Assembly (NCBI RefSeq): GCF_000427095.1
Contig: NC_021487.1
Span: 372,001-436,000, forward strand
Direction of reading: 5' to 3'
Origin: Chthonomonas calidirosea T49
GTDB taxonomy: Bacteria; Armatimonadota; Chthonomonadetes; Chthonomonadales; Chthonomonadaceae
Length of the DNA stretch: 64,000 nt
Below the pieces are notes generated by a model that made no database searches, was not told the origin of the DNA, and was given only the letters and a program-made list of their open reading frames with translations. The translations under genes and the position numbers were made by a program. The stretch's first letter is position 1. Each line of letters opens with the position of its first letter. This document shows, piece by piece, positions 59,133 through 64,000 of this stretch.

Positions 59133-60554
59133 CTAGATGTTTTGCATTTTTGCCGTTTGCTTGATGCCGAGGAGATAAAAGCTGCCACTTACTAGTAGCC
59201 CAGGTATCAGGGGTGGAAGGCCCCAGAGATCTCGGTAATTGCCGTGGTAGTAATACCAACCAAGCCCGAGATCTAAGAAGGCAACAAGGGAGCCATAGAG
59301 CATCGCCCGAAAGGCGTAACGGGCTGGGATTTTCCATTTTGGAGGACAGAGGTATGCCCCGACTAATGGCAGTAGTAGACCTGATACGATGAGATTTCCA
59401 AAAAGGTACCACTGTTCTACAACAGAGCGTACCATCAAAGCGATACCGATAGAGATAGAGGACGTAAGTACCAGTCCGATGCGAGTATAGCGAGGCACAT
59501 TCTGAGGCCCGTTTTCGTTCCGAAGGCGCCATATAAAATCTCGCCCAATGGTCATGGCTGAGATAAAAGTATAGGAAACAGTCGCGGCCATGATGGGGGC
59601 TAGCATCCCGACGTAGAAAAAGCCACGAAGGCCGTGCGGCAAAACCTTGGCAGCAATAGTTGGAAAAGCTAAGGTAGGATCGCTTAGATTGGGAAAAAGA
59701 ACACGTGTGAACAGCCCAGTGAGAAAAGTAAGGGAGTCAAAAGTGAACCAGCAGACAACAGCAACGAGAATGCCTAGGGAAGCGACGTACGGAGTTTTCG
59801 CGGCGTAGCATCGCTGATGAAACCCTGGATCGGTAAATGTTTGGAGTGCGATGACACTCCATGCCAGAAGCCATAGCACGTTATGGGTACCAAGCACAGT
59901 GAAGTAACGCGGTGGGAGGTGATCGGCATGAAGAAGCTGCCGGACACCACCGAATTTCGCTAAGCAAAAGGCCACCGTTAAAATAAAACCAGAAAACATT
60001 AACAGAAACTGTAACGTATTAACGCGTACATCGGCAAGAAAACCGCCCATAAGCGCATAGATGATCGAGAAGAGCGTTCCGATTAGCATCGCCAGCCAGA
60101 GCGGCCATCCAAAGAGGAGTTGCAGGAGAATTCCGAGCATCAGCACATACTGCGATGGGGTAGCGTAAAGAAAGGCAAGAAAGGCCCCTAGCAGGGCTGT
60201 TTTCCTGTCGTACTCTATTTCCAATCGATCGGGAATGGTATAGAGGTTCGTGCCCGCTTGACGAACGCGTTTTGCTAAGAAGAGCGCGAAGAGGATGGCG
60301 AACAGATAGTAGGGTACGCCGTTCGCCATCCACGCCGCAAGGCCGTCGGTATAGACGAACTCCCCAGCACCCAAGATTCCACCGTACCATGTAGCCACGA
60401 GAGTGGCAACGAATATGGGCAAGCTAAGGTTGCGGTCTGCGATTAAGTAGCTTTCAGTAGTAATGTGGTTTCTCCGTAGCCCAACCCATAGCAGAAAAGC
60501 CAAGTAGACAATTAAAAACAACCAGTCGTATAGGGAAAAATGAGGATTGGTCAT
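59133..60554 (-). CDS. sodium:solute symporter (SSS family)
   Basis: A 473-residue protein with about 13 membrane segments. The N-terminus LFLIVYLAFLLWVGLRRN and ATWYGGILGAGEFVYTDG match the first helices of the SSS fold, and LIFV-type helices follow (FYVGMLAPIMAATVSYTFISAMTIGRD, noted as MLAPIMAATVSYTFISA). The Na+-site Ser/Thr region is in AATVSYTFIS. It starts 4 nt inside the thiamine pyrophosphokinase gene and so lies in the TPP-riboswitch operon. A thiamine or precursor substrate is therefore plausible but unproven. Confidence 0.88.
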   Translation of the reverse strand: MTNPHFSLYDWLFLIVYLAFLLWVGLRRNHITTESYLIADRNLSLPIFVATLVATWYGGILGAGEFVYTDGLAAWMANGVPYYLFAILFALFLAKRVRQAGTNLYTIPDRLEIEYDRKTALLGAFLAFLYATPSQYVLMLGILLQLLFGWPLWLAMLIGTLFSIIYALMGGFLADVRVNTLQFLLMFSGFILTVAFCLAKFGGVRQLLHADHLPPRYFTVLGTHNVLWLLAWSVIALQTFTDPGFHQRCYAAKTPYVASLGILVAVVCWFTFDSLTFLTGLFTRVLFPNLSDPTLAFPTIAAKVLPHGLRGFFYVGMLAPIMAATVSYTFISAMTIGRDFIWRLRNENGPQNVPRYTRIGLVLTSSISIGIALMVRSVVEQWYLFGNLIVSGLLLPLVGAYLCPPKWKIPARYAFRAMLYGSLVAFLDLGLGWYYYHGNYRDLWGLPPLIPGLLVSGSFYLLGIKQTAKMQNI

Positions 60555-61210
60555 GGGGCTGGTGTTTCCCTGATGGAGGAGCTTAGTAAGCAGAGAAAAA
60601 CCGTACCCTGCACTAACTCGATTTCTACATTCCGTCCGAGCGCTTTATTGCTCACCGCCCGCGTGCCAGGTTGCAACAATAGGTGATCTGCCTCCCACTG
60701 CACCCCATGAATAGAAAGGATAGCAGGTTCAATTGCGATAACGGAGATGATATCGTCTGGCTGAGTGGGCAGTATGCGTTTGCTCGGGGAGTTCCTGTTC
60801 GCAGAGAGGCACCACAAGAAGGTGTTTGCTTCCTGAATACATAGAGTCATTGTTCGATGCCAGGATAGTAAGAGAGCGAGATTTGCAAGCGTGTGATCGA
60901 GCCTGCCACCTGTAGCTCCCAACACAGTGACTTGAGTCGCACCGCGATCTCTGGCCAGTTGAAGCGACTTTTCTAAGTCTGCGTAGTCCTGATTGGGTGC
61001 GACGACGATTTCTGCTGCTGGAAACAGTTGACTCGCGTGAGCTTTATCTATAGAATCGAAATCGCCACAAATAAGATGAGGCTGAAGTCCAAGATCATAC
61101 GCTTTCATAGCAGCGCCATCGGTAGCGATAATCAGATCGGCTGTAGCAGCAACACGTTGAGCTAGATCGCGAGGGGGTGGCGAGCCGTTAGCAAGGATCA
61201 GTACGTGCAT
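60551..61210 (-). CDS. thiN: thiamine pyrophosphokinase
   Basis: A 219-residue enzyme that makes TPP from thiamine and ATP. The N-terminal part reads LILANGSPPPRDLAQRV, then LIIATDGAAMKAYDLGLQPHLICGDFDSID, noted as ATDGAAMKAYDLGLQPHLI and CGDFDSID, with the DFDS metal site. DYADLEKSLQLARDRG and ATGGRLDHTLANLALL are the family's ATP-binding segments. ATG 61210 is used: the frame upstream lies inside the pseudopilin gene. The pseudopilin stop ends 4 nt before, so the two are closely coupled; the SSS gene overlaps by 4 nt. Confidence 0.93.
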   Translation of the reverse strand: MHVLILANGSPPPRDLAQRVAATADLIIATDGAAMKAYDLGLQPHLICGDFDSIDKAHASQLFPAAEIVVAPNQDYADLEKSLQLARDRGATQVTVLGATGGRLDHTLANLALLLSWHRTMTLCIQEANTFLWCLSANRNSPSKRILPTQPDDIISVIAIEPAILSIHGVQWEADHLLLQPGTRAVSNKALGRNVEIELVQGTVFLCLLSSSIRETPAP

Positions 61211-61214
61211 GTTC

Positions 61215-62018
61215 TTAATCGCAGAGCCAATAGTAAGTAGGTGGGTTTCCAGGATTGCCGTCGGTGGCTGCATTGGGGTCGAGTTGTCCGCTGCGCTCAC
61301 CTCCTGGGCACACGACTTCATTGTCGAAGGCTGCACTTGAGACGATGAACTTGCCGTGTCCATCTGCGAACACGATTCCTCCTCCGCGCGGATGCCACTG
61401 TTGAAAATAGCCGGGAATGTAGCCATAGCTTGGATTTGTTCCAAACCAAGGCATCATCTCATCTCGCATGAGGCGTGTTTCTGCTGGCAGTGCTAGTGAG
61501 GCTAAAGTGACCACTTGTGTCGTGGTATAGAGAATGTTATCTTGGCTCGATTCATTTGCGATGGTGGTAAAGATGCCGTGATCGAAGCGATAGCTTGAAC
61601 CATAGCAGTCAAAATAGGTGTTTGTATTTGGGCAGCCGTCATTTTGATAGGTAGTATAGAGTGAGGGGCCGCCCTGATCATCCGGACACTTGAAAATAAG
61701 ATGATTTTTGACGTAAGGCATCAACTCAACTTCTACCCCTTTGTGAGCGGGTGTTCCAGAAGGCGCGGGGACATTGTGGATAGGGTCCCAGGTATTGTAG
61801 GCATAGAAGATGGGAAACGTTTCATCGTAATCCTGAAGGTACATCTGCACCGCCATGCTTAGCTGTCGGACATTCGAAGTACAGACGGCTTGGCGGGCTT
61901 GCTCACGTGCTTGAGCAAAAACAGGAAAGAGGATAGCTGCAAGAACAGCTATTATCGCGATAACTACTAGAAGCTCAATGAGCGTAAATGCTTTTTTGAG
62001 GTAGATTGGTAGAACCAT
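61215..62018 (-). CDS. DUF1559 pseudopilin-like protein in the thiamine operon (third of three)
   Basis: A 267-residue pseudopilin: [20 protein letters not shown], then VFAQAREQARQAVC, with H-X9-DG as H-PRGGGIVFA-DG at about residue 222. ATG 62018 is chosen because AAGGAGAAAGTA precedes it; an in-frame upstream start would lie within the riboswitch terminator. It is the first gene after the TPP riboswitch, with the thiamine pyrophosphokinase gene 4 nt behind. A role in thiamine capture is inference from position only; nothing in the protein itself shows it. Confidence 0.9.
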   Translation of the reverse strand: MVLPIYLKKAFTLIELLVVIAIIAVLAAILFPVFAQAREQARQAVCTSNVRQLSMAVQMYLQDYDETFPIFYAYNTWDPIHNVPAPSGTPAHKGVEVELMPYVKNHLIFKCPDDQGGPSLYTTYQNDGCPNTNTYFDCYGSSYRFDHGIFTTIANESSQDNILYTTTQVVTLASLALPAETRLMRDEMMPWFGTNPSYGYIPGYFQQWHPRGGGIVFADGHGKFIVSSAAFDNEVVCPGGERSGQLDPNAATDGNPGNPPTYYWLCD

Positions 62019-62114: not shown

Positions 62115-62133
62115 GCATAAATGAGTCATTGCT

Positions 62134-62210
62134 TCCCTCCGTCGGCATTACCCGAATCAGGTTCATAGGGTTGGGCTAGGTAGCCCTCTCAGCTTTACAG
62201 CACCCCTAGC
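62134..62210 (-). promoter_or_regulatory. TPP riboswitch (THI element)
   Basis: The minus strand contains the conserved TPP core in order: GGGGTGC, GCTGAGAG, ACCC-TATGAACCTGAT, CGGGTAATGCC and GACGGAGGGA. Spacing matches the class: GGGGTGC opens the aptamer and GGAGGGAAGC closes it. It senses TPP and switches off the downstream operon through the following terminator. Confidence 0.95.
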
Positions 62211-62231
62211 ATAGAATGAGGATATAGTCAG

Positions 62232-62294: not shown

Positions 62295-63653
62295 TTACTC
62301 AGCCATGACATAGGCAGACTCGCCGTGCTGGGTAAGGTCGAGACCTATGTTTTCATCTTCCACGTTGACGCGCAGGCCCATGGTGGCGCTAAGAATTTTC
62401 GTAAGTATCCAAGTGCCTATAGCTGCATATGCAACAGCGCTGGCAACGGCAATAGTCTGTTTGATGAACAGAGTAAGGCCGCCACCGTAGAAAAGGCCGT
62501 TACTTCCGGAGCCGTTCACGAGGACGGAAGCGAAGAGGCCTGTTGCGAGCGCTCCCCATATCCCTCCCATACCGTGCACTCCAAACACGTCGAGAGCGTC
62601 ATCGTAGTGAAATCGGTGTTTAAGTTTGATAGCATAGAAGGAGATGAAGGCCACTCCAACGCCGATGAGCAAAGCCGGAATGGGGCCGACATAGCCTGAG
62701 GCCGGTGTAATGGCTACAAGACCTGCGACCGCACCCGTGGCAAAGCCTAGCGCTGTAGGTTTTTTGTAGATACTCCATTCAATGAGTATCCATGTAAGTC
62801 CGGCGATAGACGCAGCTATGTGGGTGGCGACGAAGGCGGAGGAGGCAAGTCCGCCTGAGGCCAAGGCACTGCCGGCATTAAAGCCGAACCATCCGAACCA
62901 CAGTAATGCGGTTCCTACCAGGGTCATAGTGAGGTTATGGGGACGCATCTCTTCTCCGGTATGTAGCGTATCTGTGTAGCGTCTGCCAAGTGCGATAGCG
63001 AGGACCAGCGCCGAAACCCCGCTGCTGATGTGCACAACAGTACCACCTGCAAAATCCAGTGCTCCGAGGCTATTGAGCCAACCGTTGTGTCCCCAAACCC
63101 AGTGGGCAAGTGGACAGTAGATGAAGGTGCTCCAGAGGGTAATAAAGACCACATAGGTCGAAAATTTCATGCGTTCGGCGATCGCCCCGCTGATGAGCGC
63201 TGGGGTGATGATGGCGAACATCAGTTGGTAGATCATGTAAACCTGGTGCGGGACGGTAGGAGCGTAGTAAGGGGAAGGGGTTTCACCTACATGGTTAAGT
63301 CCAAACCATTGCAGACTACCTATGAAAGGGTTCCCTGGCGCAAAAGCGAGGGAGTAGCCCCAGAGAAGCCATACAAAGGTCACGATGCCGAGCGCCACGA
63401 AGCTTTGCATAAGCATATTAAGTACATTTTTAGAACGCACCATACCGCCGTAGAAGAAAGCGAGGCCTGGCGTCATTAGCATCACGAAGGCAGCAGCGAC
63501 GAGCATCCAGGCGGTGTCACCCGTGTTAATAGCAGGAGAAGAGGGTGTGGGGGGCTGGGCACAGGCGTTTGCATTGGCAAGCAGAATGATAAGAAGCGTT
63601 GTTGCTGCGGTTAGAGCTATTTGGGTGTTCGATTTGATAAATTTGTGAAACAT
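62295..63653 (-). CDS. amt: ammonium transporter Amt
   Basis: A 452-residue Amt/MEP/Rh transporter. Eleven membrane segments follow a cleaved or uncleaved signal sequence (LTAATTLLIILLANANACA). Family hallmarks are MLMTPGLAFFYGGMVRSKNVLNMLMQS, shown as TPGLAFFYGGMVRSKNVLN, with DFAGGTVVHISSGVSALVLA (twin-His region, here GGTVVHISSG) and FGVHGMGGIWGALATGLFA (HGMGG). The 5' leader is long and structured. No glnB/glnK regulator follows; the next item leftward is the TPP operon. AGGAGGAACCT (63672-63662) is the ribosome site, 13 nt from the ATG. Confidence 0.96.
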   Translation of the reverse strand: MFHKFIKSNTQIALTAATTLLIILLANANACAQPPTPSSPAINTGDTAWMLVAAAFVMLMTPGLAFFYGGMVRSKNVLNMLMQSFVALGIVTFVWLLWGYSLAFAPGNPFIGSLQWFGLNHVGETPSPYYAPTVPHQVYMIYQLMFAIITPALISGAIAERMKFSTYVVFITLWSTFIYCPLAHWVWGHNGWLNSLGALDFAGGTVVHISSGVSALVLAIALGRRYTDTLHTGEEMRPHNLTMTLVGTALLWFGWFGFNAGSALASGGLASSAFVATHIAASIAGLTWILIEWSIYKKPTALGFATGAVAGLVAITPASGYVGPIPALLIGVGVAFISFYAIKLKHRFHYDDALDVFGVHGMGGIWGALATGLFASVLVNGSGSNGLFYGGGLTLFIKQTIAVASAVAYAAIGTWILTKILSATMGLRVNVEDENIGLDLTQHGESAYVMAE

Positions 63654-63661
63654 GCTTTGTT

Positions 63662-63672
63662 AGGTTCCTCCT
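63662..63672 (-). promoter_or_regulatory. amt ribosome binding site, complementary to a leader segment
   Basis: The SD region AGGAGGAACCT (minus strand) is the exact complement of the leader segment at 63751-63741 (AGGTTCCTCCT). Pairing the two over 11 bp would block initiation. Confidence 0.6.
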
Positions 63673-63716
63673 GTGGTAGATAGGCTGCATTGCGGATAGA
63701 TTCAAACACTGAGTGA

Positions 63717-63770
63717 ACGTAAAAGAACGCCACCGCCTGAAGGAGGAACCTCGTTCCTCAGACAGACGGC
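63717..63770 (-). promoter_or_regulatory. hairpin with U-rich tail in the amt leader
   Basis: On the minus strand CCGTCTG pairs with CAGGCGG (one G-U) and encloses the exact GAGGAAC/GTTCCTC stem with a 3-nt loop. A U-rich TTCTTTTACG follows. It resembles an intrinsic terminator, and its inner arm includes the anti-SD segment. Confidence 0.5.
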
Positions 63771-63779
63771 TAGCCGAGA

Positions 63780-63930
63780 CACATCCTTGTCGTGGGCAGC
63801 CTGCCCTCTTGTGATAAGGTTTGATGGTCCTTATGACTAGGACTGCTCGGCCACTAGGCGGCTCTAATGCCGACTGCGCCGTCGGTCTGATAAGAGGATC
63901 ATGAGACGCTCACAGCTGTGTGAGCGTGAT
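63780..63930 (-). ncRNA. structured leader RNA upstream of amt, class unknown
   Basis: Several helices can be drawn on the minus strand. The stem AAGAGG/CCTCTT (63892-63897 with 63805-63810) could enclose a hairpin CCGAC/GTCGG (63870-63874 with 63881-63885) and another ATAAGG/CCTTAT (63814-63819 with 63829-63834). A separate 9-bp perfect stem (63906-63914 with 63919-63927, 4-nt loop) lies at the 5' side. The sequence does not match TPP, SAM, cobalamin, glnA/glutamine, T-box or ydaO consensus as I remember them. A leader RNA or independent RNA gene is possible. Confidence 0.45.
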
Positions 63931-64000
63931 AATTCCATTTTGGCACGCGTTGCGGTCGCGAGTCAATATCAAAGAATGAGTGAGGTCAGAGGAATAGAGG

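Follow-up and report, generated by a model that had tools for sequence, protein, structure and literature searches.

Ammonium uptake is usually under the control of transcription factors and P-II proteins, and at the RNA level the main known means of controlling ammonium transporter genes (amt) are glutamine riboswitches of the glnA type. Such RNAs sit before nitrogen genes, ammonium transporters included, which gives RNA control of amt a precedent (PMC2864571). The leader described here likewise precedes an ammonium transporter gene. However, the two glutamine riboswitch families, the glnA RNA (RF01739) and the Downstream-peptide RNA (RF01704), have their listed occurrences in cyanobacteria and marine samples, whereas this leader belongs to a member of the Armatimonadota and matches neither model up to E = 10. 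Among the papers searched, none names Armatimonadota together with riboswitches.

Translational switches and attenuators that sequester the SD offer a further comparison. Like them, the amt leader has an anti-SD and a hairpin that excludes it (an anti-anti-SD), and its modelled layout resembles that of a translational riboswitch or attenuator. It differs from these systems in that the searches found no homologues, and in that neither of its two short ORFs has a convincing ribosome site that would mark it as a leader peptide. With the TPP riboswitch (RF00059), a true example of which lies about 1.5 kb away, it shares the position of an aptamer-like domain upstream of a putative expression platform, but it matches that family in neither sequence nor structure.

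The amt locus and its leader transcript

Chthonomonas calidirosea is a thermophile of the Armatimonadota with a growth optimum near 68 °C. Strain T49 has a genome of one contig with 3,437,861 bases, equal to its published size (PMC4959169). Strains P488, WRG1.2 and TKA4.10 diverge by about 1% (PMC4959169). Known cis-regulatory RNAs, TPP and M-box, are used in the T49 genome. The window, a stretch of 64,000 nucleotides from this genome, carries amt on the minus strand with its ATG at 63653, separated by about 500 bases from the divergent rph gene (Table 1). Because a promoter-like site in this intergenic stretch would put the RNA start near 63930, the leader is predicted to be about 277 nt long; the consensus scan that placed it saw one such site where 0.6 would be expected by chance. 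The SD-ATG spacing of amt is at the long edge of the range in the T49 genome. Unlike the second amt of T49, a distant gene (L002, G000:C1:1942473-1945289) that adjoins a P-II gene, the amt of the window has no P-II neighbour; the genome holds three P-II genes.

Just past amt, on the minus strand at 62117-62217, lies the TPP riboswitch (79 bits), which precedes a DUF1559/prepilin-type ORF, with no thiamine gene directly downstream. This ORF is followed by genes for thiamine pyrophosphokinase (60551-61444) and for a sodium:solute symporter (59133-60554), so the prepilin-like gene may lie inside a thiamine operon.

Table 1. Positions in the window of the amt gene, its neighbour and the elements of its leader
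Feature	Position	Strand	Remark
amt, ammonium transporter, 452 aa	62295..63653	-	PF00909, 436 bits; TIGR00836, 477 bits
SD region AGGAGGAACCU	63662..63672	-	AGGAGG end 13 nt from ATG
U-rich tail, UGGCG + UUCUUUU, 3' of switch hairpin	63721..63732	-	no recognised terminator
Switch hairpin (outer stem, 3x3 internal loop, inner stem)	63733..63769	-	
Anti-SD AGGUUCCUCCU	63741..63751	-	exact complement of SD region; overlaps 3' arm of inner hairpin
Branched, aptamer-like domain closed by P1, with P2-P5	63758..63890	-	predicted fold
P1 helix	63890-63885/63763-63758 and 63883-63878/63770-63765	-	
P2	63875-63856	-	
P3	63853-63844/63781-63771, continued 63843-63835/63791-63783	-	
P4	63834-63829/63819-63814	-	
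P5	63806-63802/63798-63794	-	
5' hairpin ACGCUCACA-CAGC-UGUGAGCGU, 9 bp, perfect (63927-63919/63914-63906)	63906..63927	-	pair probability 0.95-0.97
Promoter-like site TTGACT-18-CAAAAT, TG ahead of second hexamer	63937..63966	-	consensus scan
rph, RNase PH, divergent neighbour upstream of amt	start 64151		

Predicted folds and their chance expectation

The initial annotation described several long helices in the upstream part of the leader, a perfect one of 9 bp among them, and folding bore this out. At 37 °C the helices of the branched domain have probabilities of 0.85-1.0, and the fold is retained in the model at 60 and 68 °C, with P2, P3 and P4 at about 0.66-0.78 at 68 °C. Taken from 63757 to 63891, the domain has a z of -5.2 (0 of 300 dinucleotide shuffles were equally stable); the opposite strand gives -3.9. 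The helix probabilities and this z together point to a structured domain in the 5' leader of amt.

The 3' part of the leader can adopt alternative pairings. Its 11-nt anti-SD is, as annotated, the perfect complement of the SD region (100%, by direct reading and by a repeat search), and the modelled probability of the pairing is 0.97 at 37 °C and 0.94 at 68 °C. The SD helix thus holds in the model at the higher temperature, which makes an RNA thermometer unlikely. In the rival hairpin, the inner stem of 7 bp joins GAGGAAC (63759-63753) to GUUCCUC (63749-63743) across the loop GAG, and the outer stem, also of 7 bp, joins CCGUCUG (63769-63763) to CAGGCGG (63739-63733). The G-U pair that the outer stem was said to gain on the minus strand was found at 63770/63732. 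CCGUCUG overlaps the 3' strand of P1, and these common bases make P1 and the outer stem mutually exclusive. The inner hairpin and the SD pairing likewise exclude each other, as originally proposed. As computed, these pairings would constitute an expression platform with mutually exclusive states.

Chance was gauged on a null sample drawn from 20 stretches of the T49 genome, each of 20 kb and together supplying 277 genes. The anti-SD of amt is the longest in this sample (rank 1); one of at least 7 nt occurs in 18 of the 277 genes, and in just one of these 18, amt itself, does it also take part in a rival hairpin of at least 6 bp. Of 5000 dinucleotide shuffles, one yielded an 11-nt match, which puts the local chance at about 2e-4; at that rate per leader, with about 2,900 genes, one such match would be unsurprising genome-wide. 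Among the 129 genes whose upstream region measures 150 nt or more, the amt leader ranks 4th by fold z, and the genuine TPP riboswitch leader of the window, measured alike, ranks 10th; about 3% of the sampled T49 leaders fold as unusually as that of amt. Taken alone, the 3' platform has ordinary fold stability (z -1.1). Direct repeats between the promoter and the leader end were set aside as chance (p about 0.1-0.2).

Fold z was lower still at three other sites in the sampled genome stretches (upstream of L151 ~4208, L138 ~15623 and L142 ~3011), where there is no Rfam riboswitch match. These sites are possibly further structured leaders or mis-called genes.

Searches for related leaders

No Rfam 15 covariance model matched the leader (63640-63960), whether at the gathering score or at E up to 10, in keeping with the earlier remark that it fits no known class. 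Rfam matched only the TPP riboswitch nearby and, below threshold, a stretch inside that riboswitch, taken as chance. BLASTN of the leader in 17 genomes of the family found itself alone above chance. A covariance model of the single sequence, which as such has limited power, also found the window alone above chance in the order and in 291 Armatimonadota genomes, with one genome in the genus; its matches with E of 0.036 and 0.146 fall within or next to unrelated genes and were attributed to chance.

The proteins of the closest amt genes share about 72% identity with that of the window, and the leaders of these genes differ from the one described here; an amt search of genome contigs gave nothing closer (best 60% identity). 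In a comparison of about 20 related amt leaders, that of G019 (L006) was found to have a 7-nt anti-SD and a weak collinear similarity near the platform, around GUCUGUCU...AGG (p 0.015 before correction, about 20 tests). It has no P1 equivalent and was not accepted as a homologue. RNA structure is usually proved by covariation, and because no homologous leader was found for such a comparison, the term riboswitch was lowered to riboswitch-like leader. The first reading is partly supported: support extends to a structured leader on the amt strand with a promoter-like site close by, to the mutually exclusive pairings and to the lack of a matching Rfam class, and not to ligand binding, a nitrogen ligand, transcription attenuation or conservation of the stems.

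Some of the other amt leaders have motifs of their own. In tandem amt genes (L004, L031 and L007; G007, G006), the leader motif GCCCGUCCCCRGUGUUCAYCG...GCGGAGYGACAGGCG is common to both copies, and CCCCA/UGGGG in one copy is CCCCG/CGGGG in the other, possibly a covarying anti-SD pair. Three genomes of one genus (L011, L012 and L014) have a conserved hairpin, UGAUUAUACACCYCUAAUCAUC, shortly 3' of a -10-like box and followed by a divergent structured stretch.

Proposed mechanism and rival readings

Model energies were tracked along the growing 3' end of the RNA. For 3' ends from 63730 to 63673, the P1 state and the state with outer and inner stems lie within about 4 kcal/mol of each other at 37 °C and about 2 kcal/mol at 60-68 °C. 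With the SD added to the transcript, the combination of P1 and SD pairing is favoured, at 37 °C by about 8.5 kcal/mol and at 68 °C by 3.5 kcal/mol. With the 5' strand of P1 made unavailable, no more than about 1.6 kcal/mol separates the 14-bp hairpin from the SD pairing. Because of these energies, the leader can be coherently read as a co-transcriptional translation switch that would be off while P1 persists and on once it gives way. A domain closed by P1 would keep CCGUCUG occupied, and the anti-SD, left with a weak 7-bp hairpin, would be captured by the SD, turning translation off. Were P1 opened, or not formed during transcription, CCGUCUG would pair with CAGGCGG and lock the anti-SD in the 14-bp hairpin, so that the SD would be free and translation on. 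Both switching in vivo and this polarity are what we infer for the leader.

The evidence favours a cis-regulatory RNA for amt that is restricted to its lineage, and we give roughly even odds that it is a cis-acting RNA controlling amt translation. Its signal might be a metabolite, a protein, an sRNA or the rate of transcription. The exact anti-SD with its rival hairpin, the very stable domain, the overlap of P1 with the outer stem, the computed energies, the promoter-like site at a fitting distance from the leader and the use of TPP and M-box RNAs in the same genome speak for such a role. Against it stand the predicted stability of P1, great enough for the off state to prevail at equilibrium, the searches that found no leader homologue and hence no covariation, the 13-nt SD spacing and the chance figures at genome scale. 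As a special case, the leader might be a metabolite riboswitch of an undescribed class found in the Chthonomonas lineage only. A ligand reporting nitrogen status (glutamine, 2-oxoglutarate or ammonium) would then stabilise P1, turning amt off when nitrogen is plentiful, and amt translation would be set by exchange among P1, the switch hairpin and the anti-SD:SD pairing. The layout of aptamer plus platform, the precedent of glnA-type RNAs before ammonium transporters (PMC2864571) and the fact that no Rfam class fits are in keeping with this idea. Yet most riboswitch classes recur, whereas 291 genomes gave no second example; P1 is very stable in the model without ligand, and the ligand is hypothetical. 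We therefore regard a metabolite riboswitch as unlikely.

A somewhat less doubtful alternative, though still an unlikely one, is that the leader, as a stable 5' UTR, serves only stability or spacing and that its anti-SD match is coincidental. A leader seen in a single genome, with no homologue found, would fit this, as would an anti-SD match that is not extreme genome-wide and an unremarkable platform, but the anti-SD, its rival hairpin, the overlap with P1 and the stability of the domain would then have to coincide in one leader. Transcription attenuation, with the outer and inner stems plus UUCUUUU as terminator and P1 as antiterminator, seems quite improbable. In its favour are the 14-bp G+C-rich hairpin, the U-rich stretch that follows and the mutual exclusion of P1 and hairpin. 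The annotation had called this hairpin terminator-like; its nested stems stand, but the U-rich tail begins 5 nt past the outer stem and is interrupted by a C. A terminator scan found no intrinsic terminator, which leaves that label weak, and read-through would fold into SD sequestration, making both states off. It is very improbable that the inverted repeats act at the DNA level instead, as operators of a nitrogen transcription factor. There is a 22-bp dyad at the predicted start site, and the halves of P1 form a 13-nt inverted repeat; however, the dyad does not recur, having just one other place in the genome, with 3 mismatches, and the greater stability of the domain on the amt strand argues for RNA. 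If the leader works as a translation switch in the way modelled here, it would provide a defined, easily tested switch and possibly a new aptamer.
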